From assembly GCF_014323725.1 (NCBI RefSeq), contig NZ_JABVED010000002.1, positions 329,682-393,681 of the forward strand: 64,000 nucleotides of DNA. Direction: 5' to 3'. Of this stretch, positions 10,394 through 25,769 are shown in pieces. The notes beneath the pieces are model-generated. The model ran no database searches, was not told where the DNA came from, and saw only the letters and a program-made list of their open reading frames with translations. The DNA comes from Actinokineospora xionganensis (lineage in GTDB: Bacteria > Actinomycetota > Actinomycetes > Mycobacteriales > Pseudonocardiaceae). Every line of letters begins with the position of its first letter. Position 1 is the stretch's first letter. The position numbers and the translations under genes were made by a program.

Positions 10394-11070
10394 TGCACCA
10401 TCTCCACCTGGCGGGCGCGGCCGTCGCGGACGATGACCTCGCGGTCGGAGTACGCGGCGACCCGCGGCTCATGGGTGACGAGGACGATCGCGGCACCGGT
10501 CTCCTTCGCCGTGTCGATGAGCAGCCGCATGACCTGTTCACCGTTGAGCGAGTCCAGCGCCCCGGTCGGCTCGTCGGCGAAGATCACCTTCGGGCCGGTG
10601 ACGAGCGCCCTGGCGACGGCGACCCGCTGGCCCTGGCCACCGGAGACCTCACCGGGACGCTTGTCGGCCGCGCCGTCGACTTCCAGGCGCCCCAACCACT
10701 CCCGGGCGGACTCCTCGGCCTTGCCGCGGGACAGGCCGCCGAGGCGCAACGGGAGGGCGACGTTCTCCAGGCAGGTCAGCTCGGGGACGAGCTGGCCGAA
10801 CTGGAACACGAAGCCGAACTCGGTGCGGCGCAACGCACTGCGGTCCTTGTCCGACATCGTCGACAGGGTCTGTCCGTTGTAGACGACCGTGCCGGACTCG
10901 GGCGCGACGATCCCCGCCATGCAGTGCAGCAGAGTCGACTTGCCCGAGCCCGACGGTCCCATCACCGCGACGATCTCCCCCGCGCCGACGGTCATCGACG
11001 CACCGTCGAGCGCCGCGGACTGGCCGTAGGTCTTGCGTAGATCAGCGCCGACCAGGAGCGGCTCGGTCAC
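10390..11070 (-). CDS. ABC transporter ATP-binding protein, MacB/LolD type, 226 aa
   Basis: Walker A is GPSGSGKST, the signature is EVSGGQGQRVAVARAL, Walker B is VIFADEP followed by TGALDS, and the H-loop is VTHEP. This is the complete short ATPase of a MacB/LolD-class exporter. The GTG start at 11070 overlaps the PadR stop by 4 nt (GTGA), and its own stop overlaps the permease start in the same way. The longer in-frame reading toward 11349 lies inside the PadR gene and was not used. Energises the permease at 8099-10393; the cargo is unknown. Confidence 0.93.
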   Translation of the reverse strand: MTEPLLVGADLRKTYGQSAALDGASMTVGAGEIVAVMGPSGSGKSTLLHCMAGIVAPESGTVVYNGQTLSTMSDKDRSALRRTEFGFVFQFGQLVPELTCLENVALPLRLGGLSRGKAEESAREWLGRLEVDGAADKRPGEVSGGQGQRVAVARALVTGPKVIFADEPTGALDSLNGEQVMRLLIDTAKETGAAIVLVTHEPRVAAYSDREVIVRDGRARQVEMVQ

Positions 11071-11591
11071 GAAGCCACCTGCTTGCCGAGGTCGGCGAGC
11101 CTGGCCGTGGTCAGCTCCAGCCAGCGCAGGTCCGCCTCGAGGTGGAACAGCGCGTGGTCGCAGATGAGCTGGTCGGCCAGGTCGCCGCGCTGCTTGCGCA
11201 CGGTCAGCTCGCGCATCGCCCGCAGGTGCGCGACCCGCTGGGCGTCGAGCACGTCGGCGGCGTTGCGGCCGGACATGAGAGCCAGGATGACCTTCGTGTA
11301 GAGCGCGCTCTGCAGGTAGATCTCCGGCTTCTCCGGCGTCACGAGCCACTCCGCGACATCGGTAACGCCCGCGTCCGTGATCGAGTACCGCTTGCGTTCC
11401 GGACCGCCCCCAGGTTCGACACCGCTCTCCTCCACCAGTCCGTTGCGCAGCAGCCGCGAGAGCGTCGAATAGACCTGCCCGTATGCCAGCGGGCGGTCGG
11501 CGCCGAAGTGCTCGTCGTAGGTGCGCTTCAGGTCATATCCGTGCCTGGGCCCTGTTTCCAGAAGCCCCAGCAAGGCGTGTCCGATTGACAT
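11067..11591 (-). CDS. PadR-family transcriptional regulator, 174 aa
   Basis: The N-terminal winged helix (MSIGHALLGLLETGPRHGYDLKRTYDEHFG ... GQVYSTLSRLLRNGLV, then KRYSITDAG) is diagnostic for PadR, and a C-terminal helical dimerisation region follows. PadR proteins repress their own operon and release on binding hydrophobic drugs or phenolics. It is the first gene of an operon with an ABC exporter, the arrangement of drug-responsive efflux units such as LmrR-LmrCD. A palindrome just upstream (11610-11621) overlaps the likely -10 and is the expected operator. Confidence 0.92.
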   Translation of the reverse strand: MSIGHALLGLLETGPRHGYDLKRTYDEHFGADRPLAYGQVYSTLSRLLRNGLVEESGVEPGGGPERKRYSITDAGVTDVAEWLVTPEKPEIYLQSALYTKVILALMSGRNAADVLDAQRVAHLRAMRELTVRKQRGDLADQLICDHALFHLEADLRWLELTTARLADLGKQVAS

Positions 11592-11599
11592 GACCCGAA

Positions 11600-11621
11600 C
11601 TGTACAGCATGTGTATACACA
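11600..11621 (-). promoter_or_regulatory. operator-like double palindrome upstream of padR
   Basis: CTGTACAG (11600-11607) and TGTGTATACACA (11610-11621) are both perfect palindromes within the 58-nt padR upstream gap. The second includes TATACA on the minus strand, a good -10 element, so repressor binding would block the promoter. PadR operators commonly have ATGT-type half-sites, as here. Confidence 0.55.
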
Positions 11622-11649
11622 CTGCGAATAGAGGTGTGAGCTGTGGAGA

Positions 11650-12006
11650 TCAGCAGGCGCAGAGGCAGAACGGGTGCCCGGCGGGGTCGGCGTAGACGCG
11701 GAACGACTTCTGCTCGTCGAGCAGCTTCGCGCCGATCTCGACGGCCCGCTCGTGGGCCGCCGCGATGTCCTCGACCTTGAGGTCGAGATGGAACTGCTGC
11801 GGCCGATCGCCCTCCGGCCACGTCGGCGCCTCGTAGTTCGCCACCGCCTGGAACTCGATCAGCGTGCCGCCGTTGCCGATGGTCGACCAGGAGTTGTCCT
11901 CTGCGGCATCGGGCTCCGGCCAGTCGAGCAGGCGGGCATAGAACTTCGAGAGCTCCAGCGGGTCGGGACAGTCCAGAACAACCGAGCCGAGTGTGGGTAC
12001 CGACAT
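11650..12006 (-). CDS. VOC (glyoxalase/bleomycin-resistance) family protein, 118 aa
   Basis: A single VOC unit with the beta-alpha-beta-beta-beta repeats: VVLDCPDPLELSKFYARLLDWP at the N-terminus and FHLDLKVEDIAAAHERAVEIGAKLL in the second half, ending with DPAGHPFCLC. The His and acidic metal-site positions look conserved. The start at 12006 has a strong GGGAGGAAATC ribosome site. Members include resistance proteins and small-molecule lyases; the substrate is not deducible. It is divergent from the CGNR regulator at 12093, with shared AACCGG sites between. Confidence 0.85.
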   Translation of the reverse strand: MSVPTLGSVVLDCPDPLELSKFYARLLDWPEPDAAEDNSWSTIGNGGTLIEFQAVANYEAPTWPEGDRPQQFHLDLKVEDIAAAHERAVEIGAKLLDEQKSFRVYADPAGHPFCLCAC

Positions 12007-12024
12007 GATTTCCTCCCAGATGCG

Positions 12025-12086
12025 TAACCGGTGATATGAGCATGCCGGTTAGGCGCGGACCCGTCAACCGGTAAAGGGCCTACAGT
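12025..12086. promoter_or_regulatory. three AACCGG sites and a TACAGT -10 in a divergent promoter
   Basis: TAACCGGT (12025-12032), its inverse GCCGGTTA (12044-12051) and CAACCGGT (12065-12072) lie about 20 bp apart, on one helix face. TACAGT at 12081-12086 stands exactly 6 nt before the GTG of the CGNR gene, and the third site falls in the spacer upstream of it. The arrangement suggests a DNA-binding protein controls both divergent genes; the CGNR protein itself is the natural candidate. Confidence 0.5.
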
Positions 12087-12092
12087 GGTTTT

Positions 12093-12557
12093 GTGAGTTC
12101 TACCCACGACGTGGAGTTGGTCCTCGACTTCCTGAACACCCTTGACGTCGAAGAGAACGCCGACCTGCTCGACGACGACCTGAGATGGCACGCCTGGCTG
12201 GCCGCGCGCGGTCTGACCGCCGGTGACCCCACGCATGTCCGAGCCGTCCGCGACGGGTTGCGGGGCCTGATCGGCGGCGCGCCCGCCTCGCCACCGCCCG
12301 ATGCGGACGTTCGGGTCTCGGTGGTCGCGGGTGTGCCGAAGGTGTCGGCACCGGACGTCGCGGGCGCGGTTCTGGCGGCGGCGAGTCGTCTGGCGGTGCT
12401 CGGCGAGTGGGAGCGGGTGAAGATCTGTCCGGCTGACGAGTGTCAGTGGGCGTTCTTCGACCGGTCGCGCAACCGGTCTCGGACTTGGTGCTCGATGCAG
12501 GTCTGCGGAAACCGGGAGAAGGCCCGGGCCTGGCGGGAGCGCTCGAAGTCCGGCTGA
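12093..12557 (+). CDS. ABATE/CGNR zinc-finger putative transcriptional regulator, 154 aa
   Basis: The N-terminal ABATE domain (LVLDFLNTLD) is followed by the C-terminal CGNR zinc finger: Cys112 and Cys117 (CPADEC) and Cys133 and Cys138 (WCSMQVCGNREKAR), the last within the eponymous CGNR 138-141. ABATE proteins are thought to be stress-related transcription factors with a zinc-ribbon DNA-binding end. The GTG start has no ribosome site but a TACAGT -10 just 6 nt before it, pointing to a leaderless mRNA. Divergent from the VOC gene. Confidence 0.85.
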   Translation: MSSTHDVELVLDFLNTLDVEENADLLDDDLRWHAWLAARGLTAGDPTHVRAVRDGLRGLIGGAPASPPPDADVRVSVVAGVPKVSAPDVAGAVLAAASRLAVLGEWERVKICPADECQWAFFDRSRNRSRTWCSMQVCGNREKARAWRERSKSG

Positions 12558-12566
12558 CCCCACCCG

Positions 12567-12760
12567 CGAGTCGCCCCTCCAGGCAAACGAGTCGCCCCAC
12601 CAGGCAAGTGAGTGCGTCCTTCAAGCAAGTGACTTCGACATGCGGAAGATTCGTCGACAGGTCCATCGGAGCCCAACCGCCTGAGGCATCGCGAACTGAG
12701 GGCTCCGCGGTCGACTCGCGTGCGCGAATGTCGAAGTCGGTTGCTGGAGGGGGCGACTCG
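12567..12760. repeat. degenerate 21-22-bp intergenic repeat in both orientations
   Basis: Three imperfect tandem units lie at 12567-12587, 12588-12609 and 12610-12630; their shared core is GAGTCGCCCC followed by a CAGGCAAG-type end. A related segment in inverted orientation lies at 12728-12760 (ATGTCGAAGTCGG, then GGGGGCGACTCG), so the region could fold into a long imperfect hairpin with a roughly 90-nt loop. It sits between the stops of the convergent CGNR and DUF445 genes. Confidence 0.6.
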
Positions 12761-12768
12761 CGCGAGGG

Positions 12769-14019
12769 TCAGGTGATCAGCTGGGCGACGGTGTAGATCA
12801 CCAGGCCCGCGAGGGCGCCGACCACGGTGCCGTTGATCCTGATGAACTGCAGGTCGCGGCCGACCTGGAGTTCGACCTTGCGTGCGGTCTCGTCGGCGTC
12901 CCAGCGCTGCACTGTGTCGGTGATCAGGGTGGTGATCTCGTCCCGGTAGTTGAGGACGATGTGGGCGGCGGCGCCCTCCACCCAGCCGTCGGCCTTGGTG
13001 CGCAGGGACTCGTCGCCCATCAGGCGGGTGCCGAGGGTCATCAGGCCTGCCCGGACCCGGGTGCGCAGTTCGCTCGACGGGTCCTCGGCGGCGTCGAGGA
13101 GCATCTTCTTGGCGGTGGTCCACGCCGAGCCGATGAGGGTCTGCACATCCGGGTGTTCGAGGACCTGGTGCTTGACCTGCTCGGCCCGCTCCATCACTCG
13201 CGGGTCGGTCTGCATGTCGCCTGCGAACTCGGTGAGGAACTTGTCCAAGGCCAGCCGCATGGGGTGGTTGACGTCGGTTTTGACGTTCCACGCGAAGGAC
13301 AGGACCTCGCCGTAGACCTTGTCCGCCACCAGGGCGTCGACGAACTTCGGCGACCACGTCGGGGCGCGGCCGGACACGACGCCCAGGACCTGGGCGTGGT
13401 TGACCTTGACCCAGTCGTAGGCCTGGTCGCACATGAGGTCCACGAGCTTGTGGTGGGCGCCGTCGCCGATGACCCGTTCCAGGAGCTTGCCCATGGGCGG
13501 ACCCCAGGGGGTGCCGACGATCCGGTTGACGACGGCCTGCTCCATTACGGCCTGCACGTCCTCGTCCCGCAGGACCGTGACGGCGCCGCGCACGACCGTG
13601 GCCAACTCCGAGGTGACCCGTTCGGCGTTCTCCCGCTGGGCGAGCCAGCCGCCGAGCCGGTTCGCCACCCCGACGCGGCGCAGGCGTTCGCGGACGACCT
13701 GTTCGGAGAGGAAGTTGGTGCCGACGAAGTCGCCAAGGCTGTCGCCGAGGACGTCCTTCTTGTTCGGGATGATCGCCGTGTGCGGGATGGGCAGACCCAT
13801 CGGCCTGCGGAACAGCGCGGTGACGGCGAACCAGTCGGCGAGGGCGCCGATCATGCCCGCCTCGGCGGCGGCCTTCACGTAGCCGGTCCACGGGGGCGGG
13901 TCCGGCCACAGGGTCAGGCCGATGAAGATCGCCGTGGCACCCAGCAGGAATCCCAGGGCGACGCCCTTCATCTGCCGCAGGGCGCGCCGCTTCTCAAATT
14001 CGCCGGGTACTTGCTCCAC
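12769..14019 (-). CDS. DUF445 family membrane protein, 416 aa
   Basis: One TM segment lies near the N-terminus (VALGFLLGATAIFIGLTLW), and a second hydrophobic stretch with the family motif GMIGALADWFAVTALFRRPMG follows. A long helical region with the repeated LRxRVxxGLxxL pattern leads to a C-terminal TM segment (TVVGALAGLVIYTVAQLIT). This is the YjiN/YheB-type DUF445 layout and length. The biochemical function of the family is unknown. A short unusual gap of 29 nt separates its start from the divergent dapC gene. Confidence 0.9.
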   Translation of the reverse strand: MEQVPGEFEKRRALRQMKGVALGFLLGATAIFIGLTLWPDPPPWTGYVKAAAEAGMIGALADWFAVTALFRRPMGLPIPHTAIIPNKKDVLGDSLGDFVGTNFLSEQVVRERLRRVGVANRLGGWLAQRENAERVTSELATVVRGAVTVLRDEDVQAVMEQAVVNRIVGTPWGPPMGKLLERVIGDGAHHKLVDLMCDQAYDWVKVNHAQVLGVVSGRAPTWSPKFVDALVADKVYGEVLSFAWNVKTDVNHPMRLALDKFLTEFAGDMQTDPRVMERAEQVKHQVLEHPDVQTLIGSAWTTAKKMLLDAAEDPSSELRTRVRAGLMTLGTRLMGDESLRTKADGWVEGAAAHIVLNYRDEITTLITDTVQRWDADETARKVELQVGRDLQFIRINGTVVGALAGLVIYTVAQLIT

Positions 14020-14048
14020 GACGCCATTGTCCGTGAGGATTCCTATCC

Positions 14049-15212
14049 GTGCCTCGAACCACGCTTGTACCCAGGCTGCGTCCGTTCACGTCGACGATCT
14101 TCGCGGAGATGACCTCCCTCGCGGCGAGCTTCGGCGCGGTCAACCTCGGCCAGGGCTTCCCGGACACCGACGGTCCGGCCGCCATGCTGGCCGAAGCCCA
14201 GAAAGCCATCGCCGACGGGATCAACCAGTACCCGCCGGGGCCCGGCAGGCCGGAGCTGCGAGCGGCCATCGCGGCGCGGCGTTCGCGCTACGGGACGGCC
14301 TTCGACCCGGACTCGGAGATCCTCGTCACCGTGGGTGCCACCGAGGCCATCGCGGCGTCGCTGCTGGCTCTCGTCGAGGCGGGCGACGAGGTGATCCTCT
14401 TCGAGCCGTACTACGACTCCTACGCCGCCTCGGTCGCCATGGCGGGCGCCACCCGGCGGGTCGTGTCCCTGGTGGAGGAGCCGTCGGGTCGCTTCGGGCT
14501 CGACGTCGAGGCGCTGCGGGCGGCGGTCACGCCCGCGACCAAGGCGATCCTGGTGAACAGCCCGCACAACCCGACCGGGACGGTCTTCACCCAGGCGGAG
14601 CTGGCAGCCGTCGTCGAGGTCTGCGTCGAGCACGATCTGCTGGCGATCACCGACGAGGTCTACGAGGACCTGCTGTTCGACGGGCTGGCGCACGTGCCGT
14701 TGGGATCGCTGCCGGGGATGGCGGAGCGCACGCTGACGATCTCCAGCGCGGGCAAGAGCTTCAACTGCACCGGGTGGAAGATCGGCTGGGTCTGCGGGCC
14801 CGCCGAACTGGTCGCGGCGGTGCGCGCGGCCAAGCAGTTCCTCACCTTCGTCGGCGGCGCGCCGTTCCAGCCCGCGGTGGCGCACGCGCTGAACCACGAA
14901 GGCGCCTGGGTGCGGGACCTTCGGGACTCGTTGGAGAACAAGCGCGACCGGCTCTCCGCCGGACTCGCCGAGGCCGGGTTCGGGGTGCGCCAGACCGCGG
15001 GCACGTACTTCGTCTGCGCCGACGTGCGGCCGCTGGGCTTCGGCGACGGTCTGGAGCTGTGCCGCGAACTGCCCGCGCGCATCGGGGTGGCGGCGGTGCC
15101 GGTGCAGGTGTTCACGGACAACCCGGACCGCTGGCGGCACCTGGTCCGCTTCGCGTTCTGCAAGAAGGACGACATCCTGGACGAGGCGATCAGCAGGCTG
15201 CACAAGCTCTGA
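14049..15212 (+). CDS. dapC: N-succinyldiaminopimelate aminotransferase DapC
   Basis: A fold-type I PLP aminotransferase of 387 aa. The PLP Lys is Lys236 in SSAGKSFNCTGWK; Asn174 (SPHNPTG), Asp202 and Tyr205 (TDEVYE) are the usual cofactor contacts; the substrate Arg lies in LVRFAFCKKDD near the end. Residue patterns such as VNLGQGFPDTDGP, GGAPFQPAV and the FCK(K/R)DD end match the mycobacterial DapC (Rv0858c type) closely from memory. DapC makes N-succinyl-LL-2,6-diaminopimelate from N-succinyl-2-amino-6-oxopimelate with glutamate, for lysine and peptidoglycan. Related kynurenine/methionine aminotransferases remain possible. Start is GTG, with GAGGA 9 nt before it. Confidence 0.82.
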   Translation: MPRTTLVPRLRPFTSTIFAEMTSLAASFGAVNLGQGFPDTDGPAAMLAEAQKAIADGINQYPPGPGRPELRAAIAARRSRYGTAFDPDSEILVTVGATEAIAASLLALVEAGDEVILFEPYYDSYAASVAMAGATRRVVSLVEEPSGRFGLDVEALRAAVTPATKAILVNSPHNPTGTVFTQAELAAVVEVCVEHDLLAITDEVYEDLLFDGLAHVPLGSLPGMAERTLTISSAGKSFNCTGWKIGWVCGPAELVAAVRAAKQFLTFVGGAPFQPAVAHALNHEGAWVRDLRDSLENKRDRLSAGLAEAGFGVRQTAGTYFVCADVRPLGFGDGLELCRELPARIGVAAVPVQVFTDNPDRWRHLVRFAFCKKDDILDEAISRLHKL

Positions 15213-15305
15213 CCCGGTTCCCCTTGTCCCTCTTTGGTGGGTCACCCGGATCCGGCTCGCGGTGATCGTCGTCCGACCGGCGATGACGATCACCGGGAGG
15301 ACCAA

Positions 15306-15866
15306 GTGGACACAGCCGAGCTCGTCCGACGGGCGGGCACGGGTGACCAGACGGCATGGCGGGACCTGGTCGAGCGGTACGCGGGCCTGGTCTGGCGGAT
15401 CGCCCGCGCCCACCGACTCGACGACGCGGACGCGGCCGACGTCAGCCAGAGCACCTGGATCGCCCTCGCGGAGCACCTGCCCACGCTCCGGTCGCCCGAG
15501 CGGCTCTCGGCGTGGCTGGCCACCACGGCCCGGCGGGAGTGTCTGCGGATGATCGCCCACCGCGGCCGTGAGGTGCGGGCGTCGGAGTGGTCCGACGTCG
15601 TCGACCACGCGGGCGAGCACCGCTGGCCGGAAACAGCCATCCTGCGCGGCGAGCGCGACGACACCCTCTGGCGCGCCTTCGCGGCGCTCCCGGACCGCTG
15701 CCGGTCCCTCCTGGGCCTGCTCGCTTTCGCACCGGACTTGAGCTACGCCCAGCTGGGGCGGGCGGTCGGGATCGCGGTGGGCAGCATCGGGCAGACCCGC
15801 GGCAGATGCCTCGACGTGTTGCGGCGCAAGCTCATCTCCCTTGGCATCCCGGGCGAGGTGGCGTGA
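15306..15866 (+). CDS. ECF-like sigma-70 family sigma factor of a CHAT-protein operon, 186 aa
   Basis: Region 2 is at residues 1-85 (ELVRRAGTGDQTAWRDLVERYAGLVWRIARAH, then DAADVSQSTWIALAEHLPTL) and region 4 is at the C-terminus (FAALPDRCRSLLGLLAF ... YAQLGRAVGIAVGSIGQTRGRCLDVLRRKL). There is no region 3, as in ECF sigma factors. The GTG start at 15306 is supported by GGGAGG upstream. No membrane anti-sigma gene is adjacent; a 22-codon reading frame, a 129-aa protein and a CHAT-TPR protein follow in one tightly coupled operon. Its targets are probably the operon itself and related genes, which is inference. Confidence 0.88.
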   Translation: MDTAELVRRAGTGDQTAWRDLVERYAGLVWRIARAHRLDDADAADVSQSTWIALAEHLPTLRSPERLSAWLATTARRECLRMIAHRGREVRASEWSDVVDHAGEHRWPETAILRGERDDTLWRAFAALPDRCRSLLGLLAFAPDLSYAQLGRAVGIAVGSIGQTRGRCLDVLRRKLISLGIPGEVA

Positions 15867-15934
15867 TGACCGGCCTGCTCGCTTCCTGCCGCCATTCCGC
15901 GGCCATCCAGCGCTTCCGAAGCGAGGTGGTGTGA
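15866..15934 (+). CDS. 22-codon mini-ORF coupled on both sides by TGATG overlaps
   Basis: ATG at 15866 overlaps the last base of the sigma-factor stop, and the TGA at 15932-15934 overlaps the ATG of the next gene. The encoded peptide begins MTGLLASCRHS and ends FRSEVV. The segment before each start is nearly identical (GCGAGGTGG then C or T then GTGATGACCG at 15853 and 15921), so it may be a duplicated ribosome-loading site, a leader peptide or a real small protein. Too short for homology-based assignment. Confidence 0.4.
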   Translation: MTGLLASCRHSAAIQRFRSEVV

Positions 15935-16323
15935 TGACCGACGCGGAGTTGCTCGCCGAGTTGGCGGGCATGTTGGACCGGGTCGATCCGGTGCCCGCCA
16001 CCGTCCGCACCGCGGCGATGTTGGCTGGGACGTTCGTCGGCGCCCGGTGGGACTGGCTGGAACTCTCGCCGCTGGCCGGGGTCGCGGTTCGGGGCGGCGC
16101 CCGGATGTGGCGGTGTGGTGCGGGGGTCATCGAGATCGCCGACCGGGTGTCCGGGCTGCTGACCGTCCCCGTCACCCGCGCGGAACTGCACAGCGCGGCG
16201 GGTGTTCTCGCCGTCGCGGTGGATTCGGTGGGCGCGTTCTCCGCTCAGCTGCCCACCGGGCGGATGCGGCTCGTGCTGCACCGGGCAGGCGACGTGCCGC
16301 TGGTGACGAGGTGGTTCCGGTGA
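15934..16323 (+). CDS. small cytoplasmic protein of the sigma-CHAT operon, 129 aa
   Basis: The protein begins MTDAELLAELAGMLDRVDPVPATVRTAA, the typical start of the conserved middle gene in actinobacterial sigma/CHAT operons. A beta-rich C-terminal half (VPVTRAELHSAAGVLAVAVDSVGAFSAQLPTGRMRLVLH) resembles a carboxypeptidase-regulatory-like or transthyretin-like sandwich. No TM segment or cysteine motif is seen. Its stop overlaps the GTG of the CHAT gene by 4 nt. It could be a cytoplasmic anti-sigma or adaptor between sigma factor and CHAT protease; no direct evidence exists. Confidence 0.65.
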   Translation: MTDAELLAELAGMLDRVDPVPATVRTAAMLAGTFVGARWDWLELSPLAGVAVRGGARMWRCGAGVIEIADRVSGLLTVPVTRAELHSAAGVLAVAVDSVGAFSAQLPTGRMRLVLHRAGDVPLVTRWFR

Positions 16324-18371
16324 CCTGGGACCACCACCACCGGGCCGCGCTCGCCCACCAAGAGCGCGGCGAGCCGTTGCGGGCCCGGCCACACGCCCGG
16401 CTGGCACGGGAACACGCCGCGACCGCGGCGCAGGCGGCGGAGTCCGCGCTGGTCATGGCCTGGATCGCGCAGCAGGTCGGCGACCACGACGCGGCGGTCG
16501 CGCTGATCGCCGACGCCCGGCCCGCGTTGTCCGGGCAGCTTTTGGCACGCGCGGACTGCCTGCACGGGCTGACGCTCTGCATGACGGCCGAGCACGAAGC
16601 GGCGCTCAGCGTCCTGGCACGGGCGGCGAAGCGGCTGCGCGACGACCACTGGCGGGCCAACGCCCTGGTCGGCATCGGCGTCTCCGCGGGCTACCTGCGG
16701 CGGCCCGCCGTGGCCGAGGACGCACTCGACCGCGCGCACGCCCTCTACCTCGCGCAAGGCAAGCCCGAGCGGGCCCGAACCTGCTTGCACAACAAGGGTT
16801 TCGTCGCCGCCCAGGCAGGCGACTTCAGCCGCGCCCTGCGGCTCTACGACGCCGCGGGCATCGACGAGACCACGCGGCCGGAGGTCCTGATCGACCGGGC
16901 GAACGCGCTCCTCGGCGTCGGACTCATCAACAGCGCAGGACGGGCACTCGCCCGGGCGGCGGTCGCGCTCGGGGCCACCGGGCGCGGGCCCGCGTTCGCC
17001 GAAGCCACTCTCGCCCACGCGCACCGGGCGCTGCTGGCCGGTGATCCCGCCACGGCGGCGAAGGCGGCTGAGACGGCGGCGGGATTGTTCGAGGAGCAGG
17101 GAAATTCGGGGTGGCTCGCGCACGCCCAAGCGGTGCGGCTGCGCGCCCTGGGGCGAACTTCGTCCGACGTCGCCGACCGGTGCGAACAGGCGGGGTGGGT
17201 CGCCGAGGCCGCTGAGCTGCGCTTGCTCGCCGGGCGGCTGGATCTGGTCGAGCCACACCGGTTCGCCGTCGAACCCGGACTGCGCGCGCTCGGCTGGCTG
17301 GCCCGGGCCCAGGCGGCGGGCAGCCCACGAGCCGCTTTCGCCGCCTGCCGCGCCGGCGGTCTGGGCGACTCACGGCTCGCCGCGGTCGGGGTGGACGCCG
17401 CCGTGTCGGGCGGCAGGCCGCGAACGGTCTTCACCTGGGCCGAGCGTTCGCGTGGCGTGGATGCCCCCACGCACCGAGAAATCGGTGTGGCACTGGGAGA
17501 TCGCGAGTTGCTAGACTTCTATGTCCATAAAGGACAGCTGCGGACGGTTTCGGTTTTCCGCGGCCGGTTCCGCGACCACGTCGTCGGATCGGCGGCCGCG
17601 GTCGCCGAAGCCGCCGAGAGCCTGCGGATAACGTCCACACTGGCCGCCAGGACCGGGACTGCCGCGGCCACCCAGCGCGCGGCACGGGTGCTCGACGCGA
17701 TGCTGTTCACGAGTTCGGCGATCCGGGAACTGGTCGTGCTCCCGTCTCCGGAGCTGTCGTCTGTTCCCTGGGCGGCGCTGCCGAGCCTGGCGGGAATACC
17801 GGTCTCGGTGGCGCCGTCGGCAGCCGCCTGGCTGCGCGCGAAACAGGTCCCCGAGCGGACCGGTCCGACCGCGTGGATCGCCTGCCCCGGCCTGACCCAC
17901 GCGGCAGGTGAGGTGACCACGCTGCATGCCCGGCACGGCGGCACCCTCGTCACCGGCCGGGAGTCGACCGTCGTGAACGTGTTGGCGGCGATGAGCGGAG
18001 CAGGCCTTGTCCACATCGCCGCCCACGGCCGACACCACACTGCGGCGCCGCGGTTCTCCGCCCTGGCACTGGCGGATGGCCCGCTGCGCGCCCAGGACAT
18101 CGAGCGGCTGCCCGAACCGCCCCGACTGCTCGTGCTGTCGTCCTGCGAATCGGGGAAGGCCGACTTGCTGGGCCTGATCGCCGTCCTGCTCGACCTGGGT
18201 GTCGGCACGGTGGTCGCCAGCACGCTGCCGGTGCCCGACGACCTCGCCGTGCCGCTGATGACCGACCTCCACGAACGGCTCGCGGCGGGCGCGGGCCCGG
18301 CGAAGGCGCTCGCGGGGGCCCAGACGGCGCACGGCCACCTCGGCTTCGCCTGCTACGGCTCACCGGGATGA
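16320..18371 (+). CDS. TPR-CHAT caspase-like protease, 683 aa
   Basis: The N-terminal two thirds are TPR-like helical repeats (AALAHQERGEPLRARPHARLAREH, then ARADCLHGLTL, RARTCLHNKGFVAAQAGDFSRALRLYD and others). The C-terminal third is a CHAT caspase-like domain: catalytic His569 in VHIAAHGRHH and Cys609 in VLSSCESG, both intact, with the ASTLPVPDD strand typical of the fold. CHAT proteases act as effectors of stress, defence or regulated proteolysis in the cytoplasm, their TPRs sensing partners. The GTG start overlaps the upstream stop (GTGA). Last gene of the sigma operon; a subtilisin gene converges on it 36 nt away. Confidence 0.9.
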   Translation: MTWDHHHRAALAHQERGEPLRARPHARLAREHAATAAQAAESALVMAWIAQQVGDHDAAVALIADARPALSGQLLARADCLHGLTLCMTAEHEAALSVLARAAKRLRDDHWRANALVGIGVSAGYLRRPAVAEDALDRAHALYLAQGKPERARTCLHNKGFVAAQAGDFSRALRLYDAAGIDETTRPEVLIDRANALLGVGLINSAGRALARAAVALGATGRGPAFAEATLAHAHRALLAGDPATAAKAAETAAGLFEEQGNSGWLAHAQAVRLRALGRTSSDVADRCEQAGWVAEAAELRLLAGRLDLVEPHRFAVEPGLRALGWLARAQAAGSPRAAFAACRAGGLGDSRLAAVGVDAAVSGGRPRTVFTWAERSRGVDAPTHREIGVALGDRELLDFYVHKGQLRTVSVFRGRFRDHVVGSAAAVAEAAESLRITSTLAARTGTAAATQRAARVLDAMLFTSSAIRELVVLPSPELSSVPWAALPSLAGIPVSVAPSAAAWLRAKQVPERTGPTAWIACPGLTHAAGEVTTLHARHGGTLVTGRESTVVNVLAAMSGAGLVHIAAHGRHHTAAPRFSALALADGPLRAQDIERLPEPPRLLVLSSCESGKADLLGLIAVLLDLGVGTVVASTLPVPDDLAVPLMTDLHERLAAGAGPAKALAGAQTAHGHLGFACYGSPG

Positions 18372-18378
18372 CACCCCC

Positions 18379-18401
18379 GCCCGCGCATAGCGAGCGCGGG
18401 C
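18379..18401. terminator. short hairpin between CHAT and subtilisin genes
   Basis: Arms 18379-18386 and 18394-18401 pair over 8 GC-rich bp around a 7-nt loop in the 36-nt convergent gap. Confidence 0.5.
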
Positions 18402-18407
18402 CGCTCG

Positions 18408-19568
18408 TCAGCTCACCTGCGATGACATCGCCGGTGACACCCGTTCCCGTGCGGCCGTGTGGGTCAGGCCCTCGTTGATGGCCTTGGCGATCTCCGCCGC
18501 CACCCTGGGCGCCGCGAAGGAGGTGCCGCTCCACCGAGCCGCCCCATACGCGCGGCCGGTCGCCGACGGGCGGACGTGGGCGCTGACGACGTCCACGCCC
18601 GGGGCCGCCGTGTCGACCCAGGGGCCGTGGCCGGAGAACGGGGCCGGGCTCCCATCCGGTTTCGTGGCGCCGACCGCGACGACCGACGGGAGTGCCGCGG
18701 GCCAGAACGGGCGAGACGTCCCGTGGTTGCCCGCCGCCGCGACCACCACGGTGTCGGTGAAGCGGGAGAACTCGTGGACCAGCGCGGGCGGGCAGCGGTC
18801 GTCCGTGGTGTGGCAGCCTGCGGTCAGGACGACGACGTCGATGTGTTCCCCGCGGGCCGCCGCGTGTTGGCGGGTGCGGCGCAGGGCCATGGCCACCGTG
18901 CGGTCGTCGGTGATGCCGTGGGAGCTCAGCACCCGGTGGTGGCGCAGGACCGCCCCGGGGGCGTGCCGCAGCGCCACCCCGGTGACGAAGGTGCCGTGGC
19001 CCGCCTGGGCGTCGGTGACGCCGTCGCCCTCGAAGTCGAGGGTCTCGGGGACCGGGCCCCACTCGCCGAACCAGGGGCGGCTGGTGAACCACGGGTGCGG
19101 GTCCACGCCGGTGTCGAGGATCAGGACCGTGACCGGCTTGGCCCAGTCCTCGGCGGGCGGCTCCGGGGGCAGTTCGACCGGCTCGGGCTTCGCGCCGGTC
19201 CCGTGCAGGATCGGGGCGCCGACCATGACCGTGTGGACGTGGTTGGCCGACACCTTGAGGCGGTCGGCGTAGTCCTCGGCGATCCGGATGGCGTCGGCGG
19301 TCGGGCGCAGCCGCAGGGTCGCGTGGTCGGCCGAGTCCACGCGGTCGATCCAGCGGGCGAGTTCGTCGACGGCCGCGTCGAGGCCGCCCAGCGGGACCAG
19401 GAGTTGGCCGCGGTGGACCAGGCACTCGGCGGGGCCGCCCGGGTCGTGGTGCTGGAAGGCGGGGTGGCGCTCGGCGATCTCATGTGTGTGCACAAGGGAC
19501 ACCGTCCCGTCGCAAGGAGACAAGCGCTCGCGGGAAGCCCTCGCGTCACCCGGAGTGGTGATTTCCAC
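18408..19568 (-). CDS. cytoplasmic S8 subtilisin-like serine protease, 386 aa
   Basis: Counting from the GTG at 19568, the triad is Asp152 (LILDTGVD), His191 (GHGTFVTG) and Ser350 (SGTSFAAPRVAAEIA), with oxyanion Asn281 (AAAGNHG). No signal peptide is visible; instead a 140-residue N-terminal region with RGQLLVPLGGLDAAVDEL precedes the catalytic domain, as in S8 proteases found beside CHAT/sigma operons of actinobacteria. The start is uncertain: GTGs and a TTG occur over about 70 nt and none has a convincing ribosome site. Convergent with the CHAT gene, so the two proteases probably belong to one module. Confidence 0.85.
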   Translation of the reverse strand: MEITTPGDARASRERLSPCDGTVSLVHTHEIAERHPAFQHHDPGGPAECLVHRGQLLVPLGGLDAAVDELARWIDRVDSADHATLRLRPTADAIRIAEDYADRLKVSANHVHTVMVGAPILHGTGAKPEPVELPPEPPAEDWAKPVTVLILDTGVDPHPWFTSRPWFGEWGPVPETLDFEGDGVTDAQAGHGTFVTGVALRHAPGAVLRHHRVLSSHGITDDRTVAMALRRTRQHAAARGEHIDVVVLTAGCHTTDDRCPPALVHEFSRFTDTVVVAAAGNHGTSRPFWPAALPSVVAVGATKPDGSPAPFSGHGPWVDTAAPGVDVVSAHVRPSATGRAYGAARWSGTSFAAPRVAAEIAKAINEGLTHTAARERVSPAMSSQVS

Positions 19569-19704
19569 ACTCTGTGATGATCGACCGCCCGGAGTGCGGC
19601 CGTTCACCGTCTTTCCGGGTGGAACGAGCCCGGTTAGGGTGCAGAAATGCGGCCAAGTCGTGGATAGTGGCTTGGTTGCGCCGGGTAGTCGGAGCGAGTC
19701 GCGG

Positions 19705-20463
19705 ATGGTGGTGACGAGCGTGGATCGCACAGTGAGCGTGCTGTTGCTCCGCGTCGCCGCCGTCGCCGGGTTGCTGATGGCGGTCTGGGTCGCCATGGTG
19801 GTCCTCGCTTCGAACGCCTCGGCTGAGGACCGGCCGCTACCACCGCCGCCGCGACCCACCCGACCCAGCTCCGGGCTGATCGGTCTCGTCGGCAACACCC
19901 TCGACGTGGCACGCCCGCTGGTGAGCGGGGTGGTCGGCACGGTGTCGGAGGTCCCCCTGGTCGACGACCCTGTCGACGTGCCGATCCTGGAACCGCAGGC
20001 GGAGACCACCAGCCAGTCGAGTGAGACGTTCTCGGCACCCGCCGCGGTGTCGGTCAAGCCGCCCGCGCCGCCACGCGCGCCCGTGGTGAGCGCGCCGGAG
20101 CCGGTCAAGGCCGCTCCGGTGCGGCTCACGCCCAAGGTCGAGCGGCCGGTTGAGCCGCCGCGACCCGTCGTGGTCCCGAAGGCGCCCGCCCGCAAGCCCA
20201 CCTTCGAACTCGTGGCCGGCTCGTCGGATGAAGAAGCCGACAAGCGAACCACCCCGGAGCCGCCCGCCGCGCCCGCGGCGCCCGCCGCTCCGGGATCCAC
20301 CGCCTCCGCCGCCTCCGATGGCGGCGGTCACGCCCGCGGCCTGACCGGCATGCTCGCCGGTCGCGCCCCGCTCACCCCGCCCGCGTCGGCGGGAGTGGCG
20401 GGATCGCGCGTCACGGACGCGGCAGGCAGATGCGCGGGGCTTCCCGCGTCGTCCCCCGACTGA
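19705..20463 (+). CDS. exported proline/alanine-rich protein, 252 aa
   Basis: A signal sequence or anchor (VSVLLLRVAAVAGLLMAVWVAMVVLASNASA, likely cut at ASA-ED) is followed by a Pro-rich segment (PLPPPPRPTRP), an amphipathic region (LVGNTLDVARPLVSGVVGTV) and long Pro/Ala/Val-rich low-complexity stretches to the end. No catalytic domain is recognisable. The ATG at 19705 was chosen because the hydrophobic segment begins soon after. It is divergent from the S8 protease gene; a cell-wall-spanning or surface role is a guess from composition. Confidence 0.65.
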   Translation: MVVTSVDRTVSVLLLRVAAVAGLLMAVWVAMVVLASNASAEDRPLPPPPRPTRPSSGLIGLVGNTLDVARPLVSGVVGTVSEVPLVDDPVDVPILEPQAETTSQSSETFSAPAAVSVKPPAPPRAPVVSAPEPVKAAPVRLTPKVERPVEPPRPVVVPKAPARKPTFELVAGSSDEEADKRTTPEPPAAPAAPAAPGSTASAASDGGGHARGLTGMLAGRAPLTPPASAGVAGSRVTDAAGRCAGLPASSPD

Positions 20464-20532
20464 CCTAGCACCGTCCCCGGGGACAGGTGTGCCCATAGGG
20501 CGCCCGTGTCCGCTCTCGAACCATCTCCACAG

Positions 20533-20606
20533 CCCGATCTGCCGACCGCGCCCGTGCAGATCGGGACCCTGGCCCCGGCGCCGCGATGCCCCCGCGGCGC
20601 CGGGGC
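20533..20606. terminator. two consecutive hairpins downstream of the Pro-rich gene
   Basis: A 10-bp perfect stem (20533-20542 with 20556-20565) is followed 6 nt later by a 14-bp perfect stem (20572-20585 with 20593-20606, 7-nt loop). They lie in the convergent gap 20464-20775, which has no gene. Confidence 0.65.
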
Positions 20607-20682
20607 ACCCACTGGCCGTCCACCGTGATCGGCACAACGAGGGGCTGTGCCGAATGACCTTCATGGTGGATGACCAGGTCGA

Positions 20683-20740
20683 AGTGCGCTGGATGGCGAC
20701 AGACCCGGAAGGGTCAACGCGTTACGCCATCCAGCGCACT
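20683..20740. other. 16-bp perfect stem with inner GGAA-tetraloop hairpin, then T5
   Basis: Arms 20683-20698 and 20725-20740 pair perfectly over 16 bp. The 26-nt loop itself carries GACCC-GGAA-GGGTC (20702-20715), a 5-bp stem closed by a GNRA tetraloop. A GCGCTTTTT run follows. This may be a terminator of elaborate shape or a small structured RNA; it lies 35 nt from the end of the MocR gene. Confidence 0.55.
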
Positions 20741-20775
20741 GCGCTTTTTAGCGGGTAAAGGGGTGGGAAAGCTAG

Positions 20776-22233
20776 TCAAGCGACCGGAATGTGCCCATAA
20801 GGACTTACCGGCGCGGGCGATCCGGTGACGTGCTCGGCCACCAGCGACAGCCTGCGCACGGCTTCGGCCAGTTGCGCGGGCGGCAGCGTGTAGGGCAGCC
20901 GGATCCAGCGTTCGAGGCCGCCGTGGGCGGCGAACCGCGATCCCGGTGCCACCCGAACGCCGAAGTTCTGCGCGGTCACCGCGAGCCGGGTGCCGATCGG
21001 CTCCGGCAGCCCGCACCACAGGCTCAGCCCGCCGCCCGGCACCTCGAAAGTCCACTGTGGACAATAAGTGCGGACGGCTTCGACCAGCGCGTCACGGCGG
21101 GCCGCGAGCTCGGTCCGGCGCACACGCGGAACCGGGTCCGGATCGGCGTAGAGTTCGGCCAGGACAAGCTGTTCGAGCACGGGCGAGCCAAGATCATAGG
21201 CATGGCGGGCGGCCGCTATTCGCCGGATGACGTCCTCCGGCGCGCGCACCCAGCCCAGCCGCAGACCGCCCCAGTGCGACTTGCTCGCCGACCCGACGGC
21301 CAGCACCATGCCGCCGCCGAACGCGGGCAGCGGCGCGGGACCGTCGAGCGGGTCGCCGTCGAGGTCGAGTTCGACCAGGGTCTCGTCCACGACGACAGGT
21401 GTCCGCGCGCGGCGCAGCGCGGAGACAAGCCGGGCGCGGCCTTCGGCGTCGAGCCTGCGCCCGGTCGGGTTGTGGAAATCGACGATGAAGTGGGCCAGCC
21501 GCGGCGACGCCTGGCGCAGCGCGGCCTCGATGCCCTCGTGGTCCCAGCCGTCCTCGACCAGCGGCACGGCGACGGGGACGGCGTGCGCGGCCTTGATCGC
21601 GTCGATGGCGTTGGGGTAGGTGGGGAGTTCGATCAGGACCCGGTCGCCCGGGTCGGTCATCGTGCGCAGCACGAGAGCGAGTGCGTGGTGAGCCCCGTTG
21701 GTGATCAGCACCTCGGCCGGGCCGGTCGGCAGACCGCGTGCGGTGTAGCGCTCGGCGATGCGCTGGCGCAGGATGTCGACGCCGTAGTCGTAGTAGCCGT
21801 GGCCCGCGAGTTCGGCGGCGAACCGGGAGCGCACGGCATCGATCGCCTTGGCGATGCCCGGAACCGCCTCGGGCGCGGCGCGGGCCAGGTCGAGGGGTTG
21901 CTCGTCGAGCGACTCCCACGTCCGGTCGGCGCCCGAGGCGCTGGGCAGCGCGGTCCAGGAACCGGACCCGCGCCTGCTGACGATCAGACCGTCGGCCCGC
22001 AGGAGGTCCCAGGCGGTGCCGACGAGCGTCCGGCTGACGCCCAGGGCTTCGGCGAGTTCGCGCTCGGCGGGCAGGACCGTGCCGGGCGGAAGCTGCCCGT
22101 CGAGGACCAGCAGCTTGATCCCGGCGGCCAGCCCAGCCGACCCCTGCCTGCTGCCGTGCGCCCGCCATTCACCCAGCAACCGGACCAATTGCTGCCGGGA
22201 GACCCGGCCACTGGGTGGAACACTCGACGTCAT
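20776..22233 (-). CDS. MocR-type GntR regulator with aminotransferase domain, 485 aa
   Basis: Residues 15-90 form a GntR winged helix (LLVLDGQLPPGTVLPAERELAEALGVSRTLVGTAWDLLRADGLIVSRRGSGSW). The rest is a fold-type I aminotransferase-like domain with FHNPTGRRL, the Asp of VVVDETL and the PLP-Lys motif SASKSHWGGLRLGWV. This is the MocR/PdxR/GabR architecture: PLP or an amino-acid aldimine is the effector and catalysis is usually lost. It is divergent from a yczE-type gene, an arrangement also seen with B. subtilis ycxD-yczE. The ATG at 22233 is the first codon consistent with the GntR fold. Confidence 0.9.
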   Translation of the reverse strand: MTSSVPPSGRVSRQQLVRLLGEWRAHGSRQGSAGLAAGIKLLVLDGQLPPGTVLPAERELAEALGVSRTLVGTAWDLLRADGLIVSRRGSGSWTALPSASGADRTWESLDEQPLDLARAAPEAVPGIAKAIDAVRSRFAAELAGHGYYDYGVDILRQRIAERYTARGLPTGPAEVLITNGAHHALALVLRTMTDPGDRVLIELPTYPNAIDAIKAAHAVPVAVPLVEDGWDHEGIEAALRQASPRLAHFIVDFHNPTGRRLDAEGRARLVSALRRARTPVVVDETLVELDLDGDPLDGPAPLPAFGGGMVLAVGSASKSHWGGLRLGWVRAPEDVIRRIAAARHAYDLGSPVLEQLVLAELYADPDPVPRVRRTELAARRDALVEAVRTYCPQWTFEVPGGGLSLWCGLPEPIGTRLAVTAQNFGVRVAPGSRFAAHGGLERWIRLPYTLPPAQLAEAVRRLSLVAEHVTGSPAPVSPYGHIPVA

Positions 22234-22237
22234 GTGA

Positions 22238-22287
22238 CCAATTGTCGCAGATTGGCTCTCGATAGAAAGTCCAATCGTTGTCAGAAT
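22238..22287. promoter_or_regulatory. CCAAT-repeat operator between mocR and yczE-like genes
   Basis: The 60-nt divergent gap contains CCAAT (22238-22242), ATTGG (22251-22255, the inverse) and CCAAT (22271-22275), two of them followed by TGTC-type ends. CAGAAT at 22282-22287 stands 6 nt before the yczE ATG and may be its -10. MocR regulators bind repeated short sites in such gaps; matching this set to the protein is inference. Confidence 0.4.
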
Positions 22288-22293
22288 GGCCGC

Positions 22294-22914
22294 ATGACCG
22301 TGGTCGACCTCCAGCACGTGCCGGTCCGGGTCGCACCCGGACGCCGGCTCACCCAACTCTTCGTCGGGCTCGCCCTGTATGGCGCGAGCATGGCGCTGCA
22401 GATCGAGGCCGCGCTCGGCCTCGCGCCGTGGGATGTGCTGCACGAGGCGCTGAACAAGGTCACCGGGCTCAGCTTCGGCACGATCACCGCGATCACCGGC
22501 GTGATCGTGATGCTGTGCTGGATCCCGCTGCGCCAGCGGCCCGGCGTCGGCACGATCGCCAACATCGTGCTCATCTCGGTGTCGGTGGATGTGACGCTGT
22601 TCCTGCTGCCCACACCGGATTCCCTGGTCGCCCGAATCGCGTTCCTCGGCTCCGGGATCGTCCTCAACGGACTGGCGACCGCGGCGTACATCGGCGCCCG
22701 GCTCGGACCGGGCCCGCGCGACGGGCTGATGACCGGACTCGCCACCCGGTTCGGGTTCTCGATCCGGTGGGTCCGCACGGGGATCGAGATCGCCGTGCTC
22801 GCCACCGGCTGGCTCCTCGGCGGCACGGTCGGAGTCGGGACCGCGCTCTACGCGGTGGCGATCGGCCCACTCGCCCAACTGTTCCTGCCCCTCGTCTCCT
22901 GGAAGCAGCAATAG
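22294..22914 (+). CDS. YczE-family integral membrane protein, 206 aa
   Basis: The protein has about five hydrophobic segments with the family features LFVGLALYGASMALQIEAALGLAPWDVLHEAL, LGPGPRDGLMTGLA and RTGIEIAVLATGWLLGGTVGVGTALYA. YczE proteins are membrane proteins of unknown mechanism; the Bacillus member is needed for polyketide (bacillaene) production. The gene is controlled, by position, from the divergent MocR regulator. No ribosome site is obvious before the ATG, but a CAGAAT hexamer at 6 nt suggests a leaderless or very short leader. Confidence 0.85.
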   Translation: MTVVDLQHVPVRVAPGRRLTQLFVGLALYGASMALQIEAALGLAPWDVLHEALNKVTGLSFGTITAITGVIVMLCWIPLRQRPGVGTIANIVLISVSVDVTLFLLPTPDSLVARIAFLGSGIVLNGLATAAYIGARLGPGPRDGLMTGLATRFGFSIRWVRTGIEIAVLATGWLLGGTVGVGTALYAVAIGPLAQLFLPLVSWKQQ

Positions 22915-23051
22915 TTGGTGTCCGACAAACCCGACTTGCAACGAACCGACACCGAAGGGGATCGTGGCGAAAGCCGACCACGATTGCCCTGCCGGTCGGC
23001 GCCATCGCCCGTCTGGTGACCCAAGCATGGAATTGCGGGGAGCCGGACTGG

Positions 23052-23597
23052 TTAGCCTGCCTGGGCCAACTCCGCGGTGACGGTGCGGTGCGTGACGCCG
23101 AAGCCTGCCAGGATGTCGGCCACGACGCCCTGCTCGGCGAGCAGCGCGAGCAACAGGTGCTCGTCACCGATCGTGGAATCCTTGCGGGCCAACGCTTCCC
23201 GCAGGGTGCGCTCCAGGAGCTTCTTGGATTCAGGGGCGATCGGGACCCGCCATCGCGGGCCGAACGCGCGCCGTCGCCTCGCCGGGGCCAGAGCGCCTTC
23301 GCCGTGGGTGGATTCGAGCGCCTCGACGATCGCGTCGACGTCGATGCCGACCTCGCTCAGGGCCGCGGTGTCCGCCTGGGACAGTCCGCCGCGGCGGTGG
23401 GCCTGGGCGATCGCCTCGGTGACCGCGGCGGTCGTGACGCCGTGCGCGGCGAGGATCTTCGCGCTGGTCGTGTCGCCGTGCTTGAGGATGGCCAGCAGCA
23501 GGTGCTCGGGCCGGATAAGGGCGGCGCGCTCCTGTTCGGCCAGGTGCACGCCGTCGCGCACGATGACGCGGGCGGTCTTGGTGAATCGCTCGAACAT
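23052..23597 (-). CDS. Clp N-terminal-domain protein (no ATPase), 181 aa
   Basis: Two Clp-N repeats are visible: MFERFTKTARVIVRDGVHLAEQERAALIRPEHLLLAILKHG at the start and SKKLLERTLREALARKDSTIGDEHLLLALLAEQG in the second half, joined by an Arg-rich linker. This is the adaptor/substrate-recognition domain of ClpC/ClpA standing alone, without AAA modules. Such proteins may act as ClpC adaptors or decoys in regulated proteolysis. It starts immediately after the stop of the small HTH gene (0 nt gap), so both are translated from one mRNA. Confidence 0.88.
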   Translation of the reverse strand: MFERFTKTARVIVRDGVHLAEQERAALIRPEHLLLAILKHGDTTSAKILAAHGVTTAAVTEAIAQAHRRGGLSQADTAALSEVGIDVDAIVEALESTHGEGALAPARRRRAFGPRWRVPIAPESKKLLERTLREALARKDSTIGDEHLLLALLAEQGVVADILAGFGVTHRTVTAELAQAG

Positions 23598-23807
23598 CTA
23601 CTTCCTCCCGTATTTCTTGTGCACGGCCTGCTTGCTCACGCCGAGTTCGGCGGCGATCTCCTGCCAGGACCAACCGTCGATCCGGGCACTGCGGACCTGC
23701 ACGGCTTCGAGTTGTTCGAGTAGCCGACGCAAGGCGGCCACCGCGCGCAGACCCACCCTGGGGTCCTTGTCGCCCGCCGCCGTGGCCAACTGGGTTGCTT
23801 CAGCCAT
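23598..23807 (-). CDS. small helix-turn-helix protein paired with a Clp-N protein, 69 aa
   Basis: The C-terminal part IDGWSWQEIAAELGVSKQAVHKKYGRK is a clear HTH with a basic end. The ATG at 23807 was preferred over an upstream codon because a TTGACA/TATGTT promoter places the transcription start at this ATG, giving a leaderless mRNA. The HTH gene directly precedes a Clp-N-domain gene, a cassette seen across actinobacteria. Two GTCAA-N6-TTGAC dyads overlap its promoter, so autoregulation is likely. Confidence 0.85.
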   Translation of the reverse strand: MAEATQLATAAGDKDPRVGLRAVAALRRLLEQLEAVQVRSARIDGWSWQEIAAELGVSKQAVHKKYGRK

Positions 23808-23810
23808 GCC

Positions 23811-23854
23811 GTCAACATAGGTTGACGACACCAGGGTTGTCAACCTTCATTGAC
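23811..23854 (-). promoter_or_regulatory. promoter overlapped by two GTCAA-N6-TTGAC dyads
   Basis: Dyad one is at 23811-23826 and dyad two at 23839-23854, 28 bp apart, each with the same 5-6-5 design. On the minus strand TTGACA (23843-23838), an 18-nt spacer and TATGTT (23819-23814) form a good promoter, the -35 in one dyad and the -10 touching the other; ATG follows 6 nt after the -10. Confidence 0.6.
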
Positions 23855-23871
23855 GGAGGCAGGATCAGGGC

Positions 23872-24624: not shown

Positions 24625-24736
24625 GGCAAACAGCGCTCAGCGTGACCGATACACGTCAAGATCAACACACCCCGTAACGCTCCCGGGTGCAGGACGACTT
24701 CGTCAGTGATACCCGCGAGTTCGCCTGGAGACGTTC

Positions 24737-25762: not shown

Positions 25763-25769
25763 GGGTCGG

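Follow-up and report, generated by a model that had tools for sequence, protein, structure and literature searches.

The regulated proteolysis that removes anti-sigma factors usually takes place at the membrane. DdvA and Csx29, two proteins with a CHAT domain, are both tied to extracytoplasmic function (ECF) sigma factors in the available portions of the published accounts, which state that DdvS is active once DdvA has been inactivated (PMC4374960) and that Csx29 is the protease of Craspase, whose substrate inhibits a sigma factor. In the current work, a stretch of 64,000 nucleotides (nt) from Actinokineospora xionganensis (contig NZ_JABVED010000002.1, positions 329,682 to 393,681 of the forward strand), which as a whole is referred to as the window, was analysed with respect to a locus in which genes for an ECF-type sigma factor, a 129-residue protein (here p129) and a TPR-CHAT protease converge on a gene for an S8 subtilisin. 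The reading put forward here, to which a probability of roughly 0.5 is given, is that of a four-gene proteolytic switch on the sigma factor: p129 would hold the sigma factor, the CHAT protease with the subtilisin would cut p129, and the sigma factor would thereby be freed. The locus comprises the following features (E, expectation value):

15227..15276, + strand: candidate ECF-type operon promoter (TCCCTCTTTGGTGGG upstream block, -35-like and -10-like elements)
15306..15866, + strand: sigma gene; ECF-type sigma factor of 186 residues (TIGR02937, Sigma70_r2; many ECF sigma factors among its solved relatives)
15866..15934, + strand: 22-codon frame within a 69-nt insertion, probably not a gene
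15934..16323, + strand: p129 gene; 129 residues, candidate soluble anti-sigma factor or sigma cofactor, paired with the sigma factor
16090..16092, + strand: codon of Arg53 of p129, in the interdomain loop (V-R-G)
16320..18371, + strand: TPR-CHAT protease gene; 683 residues (PF12770, E 1.2e-26)
18024..18026, + strand: codon of the CHAT catalytic His569
18144..18146, + strand: codon of the CHAT catalytic Cys609
18408..19568, - strand: S8 subtilisin gene; 386 residues (PF00082, E 5e-20), triad Asp152, His191 and Ser350

The original prediction, made from the sequence of the window alone, had placed the genes correctly: all were found at its positions, with the families that it had named, with start-stop overlaps (TGATG twice, GTGA once), with 36 nt separating the stop codons of the convergent CHAT and S8 genes, and with His569/Cys609 and Asp152/His191/Ser350 intact. 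The 22-codon frame, which it had counted among the coupled frames, is present and start-stop coupled; it is probably not a gene, since the 69-nt insertion that contains it is missing from L021 and L022, the two relatives compared. This insertion repeats junction sequence and preserves the coupling at both ends, and a 91-nt query spanning the frame occurs once in the genome. No Rfam match was obtained in 10000-26000 of the window, and neither a sigma-70-type promoter nor a terminator-like site was found in 15000-20200.

Conservation and co-occurrence of the four genes

Two sets of loci were surveyed, the first consisting of 40 loci of CHAT relatives from the genome containing the window and from its relatives, and the second of 80 loci found through p129 and then searched with iterated profiles, these being the best match of each of 79 of the genomes hit by the p129 profile plus a second copy in the window's own genome. 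The CHAT-based survey returned 20 loci with sigma, p129, CHAT and S8, 6 without S8, 10 with CHAT and S8 only, and 4 with CHAT alone, one of which (L037) begins at a contig end. The full module is present in 12 of the 15 other genomes of the genus, with identities to the window proteins of 57-96% (sigma), 38-92% (p129) and 55-93% (S8). Among the p129-found loci a sigma gene lies directly upstream of p129 in 77/80, and adjacent sigma, CHAT and S8 genes are all present in 51, that is, the four genes are complete in 51/61 when family f34 (see below) and the second copy of the window's genome are set aside. The 29 incomplete loci comprise 18 of f34, this second copy and ten others, and five of these ten are cut by contig ends (L076, L124, L129, L133, L146). 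Absence of the S8 gene from the operon in relatives had been named in the original prediction as counter-evidence and was looked for: S8 accompanies sigma, p129 and CHAT in 71 of the 80 loci that hold these three (20/26 in L021-L060 and 51/54 in L073-L152), and the neighbourhood survey bears out the four genes as a conserved unit with retained active sites.

In the class sample of 394 genomes, the p129 profile matched 131 and the TPR-CHAT profile (E up to 1e-60) matched 124; both matched in 122 genomes versus 41 expected, and 53 of the 56 genera having either protein have both; because the class genomes are related, the p value of a Fisher test cannot be read as a real probability. A sample of the phylum gave p129 matches in 25/296 genomes, 17 of them belonging to other classes, and the 20 loci from these 17 genomes consisted of 11 with all four genes, 4 with sigma and p129 only, 1 with sigma, p129 and CHAT, and 4 in which p129 has no adjacent sigma gene. 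Many actinobacteria thus retain the four genes either as one group or split into two pairs, a pattern suggestive of a circuit that turns genes on by protein cutting. Duplicated arrangements were also seen, L058 (3162-8460) having two tandem CHAT genes next to one module and L181 two p129/CHAT/S8 sets in tandem with one sigma gene detected.

Separation into sigma-p129 and CHAT-S8 pairs

In all 18 f34 loci sigma and p129 stand without CHAT nearby, and in 17 of the 18 genomes a single TPR-CHAT gene, full or partial, lies elsewhere (E 1e-125 or better); the eighteenth genome is a 1.7-Mb assembly that is 75% complete. S8 adjoins 15 of these 17 CHAT genes, and the remaining two are at contig ends. 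The window's genome holds a second, split copy of the system as well, with a lone sigma-p129 pair (L073, G000:C12:306892-307323) about 38 kb upstream and a lone CHAT-S8 pair (L040) on another contig (G000:C70). Such a second system in two pieces is found in the genus (4 lone sigma-p129 and 9 lone CHAT-S8 loci were examined), and a p129 copy of the lone-pair kind occurs in 16/16 genomes of the genus, either as a second copy or, in G001, as the only one. In phylogenetic trees both pieces adjoin the sigma-p129-CHAT operons of L039 and L059, with support of 100/99 for p129, for which the bootstrap had not settled, and 100/100 for CHAT; the stretches fetched for these two loci yielded no S8. One locus, L051, encodes sigma and p129 as a single 310-residue frame with p129 at the C-terminal end. 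On the strength of the separation into sigma-p129 and CHAT-S8 pairs and of the L051 fusion, p129 is assigned to the sigma factor and CHAT to S8. The original prediction had named sigma and CHAT as alternative proteins held inactive by the 129-residue protein; this sub-pairing and the single fusion point to sigma as its partner.

L145 had looked like another fusion of sigma to p129 but was discounted, the sigma region there being split across two frames. Near the sigma-p129 pair in five of the six f34 loci listed (L084, L089, L090, L096 and L104, not L108), a protein of 1,258-1,302 residues with a signal-like N-terminus is encoded, which is a possible target of the sigma factor.

The two proteases

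The CHAT protein consists of a helical TPR part (about residues 1-392) and a CHAT part (about 396-683), modelled with a mean predicted local distance difference test (pLDDT) score of 90. Among 20 members, CHAT was recognised in 20 and TPR_12 in 17, and with its TPR repeats and its CHAT domain with a His/Cys dyad the protein is a TPR-CHAT protease. Across the survey rows His is kept in 120/120 and Cys in 119/120, while for S8 the residues are Asp in 117/117, His in 117/117, the oxyanion Asn in 117/117 and Ser in 115/115, counts that skip gapped rows (30/150 for CHAT; 3 for Asp, 3 for His and 5 for Ser of 120 for S8) and in which some genomes are represented twice. Loss of active-site residues in orthologues, also named beforehand as counter-evidence, was looked for and the residues proved to be kept in all scored rows but one. 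In this row (L055) the catalytic Cys is replaced by Asn, and the gene stands without sigma, p129 and S8. A Foldseek search with the CHAT model gave DdvA as top match (E 3.3e-13), alignment with VIA-align placed Csx29/TPR-CHAT and separase nearest, and a CHAT-only profile returned DdvA first (E 1.1e-9) with TPR-CHAT/Csx29 next; the catalytic His and Cys also align within the DdvA CHAT domain, DdvA itself being titled an anti-sigma factor.

The S8 protein has a region of about 140 residues preceding its catalytic domain, and the Asp/His/Ser triad together with the oxyanion Asn marks it, at the level of sequence, as a subtilisin; its profile matches Tk-subtilisin, subtilisins and intracellular subtilisins. 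As the original prediction had noted, no signal peptide is apparent by eye in the window protein. A crude hydrophobicity cut was passed by 4 of the 78 called S8 relatives, whose start codons were picked by a crude caller, and one case is convincing: L034 (3364-4677, - strand), whose N-terminus, containing RRR plus a hydrophobic segment, is Tat-like (Tat, twin-arginine translocation). In 10 genomes all S8 proteins scoring below 1e-70 (n=11) lie in a CHAT neighbourhood, in 10/10 genomes, and the next best score is 7e-34; judged from these scores the S8 is a distinct, module-specific subfamily.

The small protein p129

The model of p129 (mean pLDDT 85) has two helices (residues 3-34) and a beta-sandwich (57-117), residues 51-60 being its lowest-confidence block. 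Arg53 is the sole invariant residue among the 74 representatives compared (below 70% identity), of which 49 have V immediately before it and 69 have G, S or A immediately after it, and an Arg in the interdomain loop was seen by eye in 21/21 p129 sequences of other classes. Perhaps this residue is the cut site predicted by the proposed mechanism. A weak match to a carboxypeptidase regulatory domain was found in 10 of 26 p129 members (best E 3.1e-4).

The sigma factor and its upstream region

The sigma factor matches TIGR02937 (E 3.6e-21, residues 17-176) and Sigma70_r2 (E 1.8e-14, above cut-off), with a weak Sigma70_r4 match (0.028), and by these matches is classed as ECF-type. Autoregulated ECF promoters have a GGAAC-type -35 and a CGTC-type -10 consensus. 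The promoter candidate consists of a -35-like GGATC (15248-15252), a 17-nt spacer and a -10-like CGTCCGA (15270-15276), and among the 13 genus loci all but L038, which deviates, have the core GGAnC-N17-CGTCnGA with the upstream block 5' of sigma (12 of 13); the core alone is expected 0.48 times in the window by chance and is not rare. Searched without mismatch, a 50-nt promoter pattern derived from these same sigma-upstream sites occurs once per genome in 10 genomes, always upstream of sigma, and with at most 2 mismatches it yields six more sites in 5 of the 10 genomes versus three for a reversed control. Since the pattern was made from its own sites, the sole informative outcome is that other close sites are lacking, which suggests a narrow regulon.

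An inverted repeat (GGTGATCGTC/GACGATCACC, 15261-15294) covers the predicted -10 region; its two arms are altered together in L022 (GTTGATCGT/ACGATCAAC), as expected of an operator or hairpin under selection. On the other side of the locus, 5' of S8 (about 19569-19690, - strand reading), CACTATC, GCACC(C/T)TA and TCCACCCGGAAAGACGG are conserved in 12 genus loci. No common motif was seen by eye in the f34 upstream regions.

Proposed mechanism and alternative explanations

In the proposed switch the module would consist of two sub-pairs, the ECF-type sigma factor with soluble p129 and the TPR-CHAT protein with the cytoplasmic subtilisin. p129 would keep the sigma factor inactive until a signal bound by the TPR part activates CHAT, which has a caspase/separase fold; CHAT together with the subtilisin would then cleave p129, perhaps after Arg53 between the helices and the beta-sandwich, and the released sigma factor would transcribe its own operon and possibly a few other genes. 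The inhibition by p129, the activation through the TPR part and the cleavage are steps that we infer from DdvA and Craspase, and which of the two proteases makes the cut, and where, is proposed on the same footing.

Several results weigh against this reading. The CHAT-based survey contains incomplete loci (the 6, 10 and 4 described above); at the cut-off, CHAT is missing from nine of the genomes with p129 and p129 from two of those with CHAT, five of the nine belonging to genus g64, whose other members reach no better than 1e-61 to 1e-75. Since proteins encoded beside p129 supplied most of the CHAT profile, CHAT proteins without p129 may be under-counted. Likewise, 8 of the 10 genomes searched for S8 had given rows to the S8 profile (G249, 3.8e-91, and G192, 1.2e-73, had not). 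Whole-length superpositions of the CHAT model are loose (Csx29 root-mean-square deviation 12-16 A, DdvA TM-score 0.31), Arg53 could be a sigma contact instead of a cut site, and the L051 fusion is a single instance in 106 p129 loci. The region upstream of S8 has conserved sequence of its own, unlike the sigma promoter, and a promoter common to both was rejected, since in a bipartite 5+5 scan no pair recurred beyond a single locus, the same outcome as with shuffled sequences. p129 itself has 7 weak Protein Data Bank (PDB) matches, none to an anti-sigma factor, and a profile check of the kind that the original prediction had proposed, made in Pfam and NCBIfam, gave no recognised anti-sigma domain, the window protein having no family at all in either library and the 26 members tested in Pfam no anti-sigma match.

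This last result bears on a rather unlikely alternative in which p129 supports sigma as a positive cofactor or stability factor and the response ends when the proteases destroy sigma or p129. Some ECF sigma factors bear C-terminal extensions, and p129 would be such a part made as a separate protein, in line with its C-terminal place in the L051 fusion, with the sigma-p129 pairs kept without nearby CHAT in 18/18 f34 loci, and with a beta domain that weakly resembles a carboxypeptidase regulatory domain and is not a recognised anti-sigma domain. The solved CHAT relatives, however, are linked to sigma inhibition (DdvA, Csx29-Csx30), which speaks against this alternative.

It is improbable that CHAT is mainly a sensor scaffold binding p129 or sigma, as DdvA may be, with S8 acting on p129 or activating CHAT. 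The S8 triad kept in all scored rows, the module-specific S8 subfamily and the anti-sigma title of DdvA, although its CHAT-domain His and Cys align, would all suit such a scaffold, but a pure scaffold does not need the CHAT His and Cys that are kept in 120/120 and 119/120 rows.

CHAT and S8 proteins occur in defence systems. Least probable is the conflict or cell-death role of the original prediction, in which CHAT and S8, triggered by phage or stress, would digest cell proteins and the sigma factor would do no more than raise their dose: both proteases are intact and PADLOC gives weak matches to BovA (8.8e-05, CHAT) and IetS (0.0025, S8), but tblastn of the CHAT protein matched 2 plasmid records and 1 phage record, none covering 80% of CHAT, no CRISPR-like repeat (direct repeats of at least 21 nt spaced by at most 120 bp) was found in 5000-30000 of the window, and 10 flanking window proteins gave PADLOC matches only for an ABC-type ATPase (mad3, E 7.4e-26, and weaker). 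This mad3 match is taken as general ATPase similarity, the 10 proteins gave no Cas match (the presence of a Cas7-11 model in that library being unchecked), and the Nonomuraea 'plasmid' record, at 11.9 Mb, is presumably a chromosome. A mobile defence element was rejected on the tblastn result, and the wide presence of the system in one or two copies (the full module in 12/15 other genus genomes, p129 in a third of the class sample), together with the lack of plasmid or phage copies, means that a regulatory system fits better than defence or death. Membership in CATRA, named as a caspase-dependent ternary conflict system in 2021 in the available part of PMC8195603, had also been suggested; it found no support, as neither the four proteins nor the alignments of p129, S8 and CHAT matched a CATRA family, in family libraries in which the presence of a CATRA model is unconfirmed, and the terms CATRA, CHAT and sigma factor do not occur in the available part of PMC7159879.

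Comparison with known systems

No published description of the four-gene module was recognised in a search that lacked most subscription papers and leaves its unpublished status unproven. Intracellular subtilisins likewise have no signal peptide, the S8 of the window differing in being tied to a CHAT gene and in having its own N-terminal region. Separase, a clan CD cysteine protease with Arg specificity, resembles CHAT in fold only. EACC2-caspase neighbourhoods, proposed bioinformatically, likewise link a caspase-like protease, an ECF sigma factor and a TPR gene, and are described with an EACC2 domain and DUF1822 and with no mention of S8 in the available part of PMC8195603.

The DdvS/DdvA system of Myxococcus xanthus (PDB 8ROT, 8RW5) also ties an ECF sigma factor to a CHAT protein, but DdvA is titled a transmembrane anti-sigma factor of 991 residues, whereas in the window module CHAT and p129 are distinct proteins, accompanied by a subtilisin. 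Craspase (DiCASP) of type III-E CRISPR consists of Cas7-11, the TPR-CHAT protein Csx29, Csx30 and CASP-sigma; near the window module no CRISPR-like repeat was found, and none of 10 flanking proteins gave a Cas-like match; the module has S8 in addition, and its p129 has 129 residues versus 565 for Csx30, the two being set side by side on length alone. In the best reading the module would work like the Csx29-Csx30-sigma branch of Craspase, but no CRISPR array, which is among the defining features of type III-E, was found near it. A bolder version, possible yet doubtful, makes it a CRISPR-free Craspase counterpart widespread in actinobacteria, in which TPR-CHAT senses a cellular signal and cuts p129 after the invariant Arg in the manner of separase, and the module-specific subtilisin completes or amplifies the cut; in that case DdvA and the Csx29-Csx30-sigma branch would represent versions of a single ancient CHAT-sigma switch. 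A caspase-fold protease and a subtilisin with no signal peptide are tied here to one sigma factor in many families of the phylum, and the proteolytic switch, if it holds, would provide a small substrate that can be tested and for which a cut site is predicted, and would connect the odd sigma factor of Craspase with the CHAT domain of DdvA.
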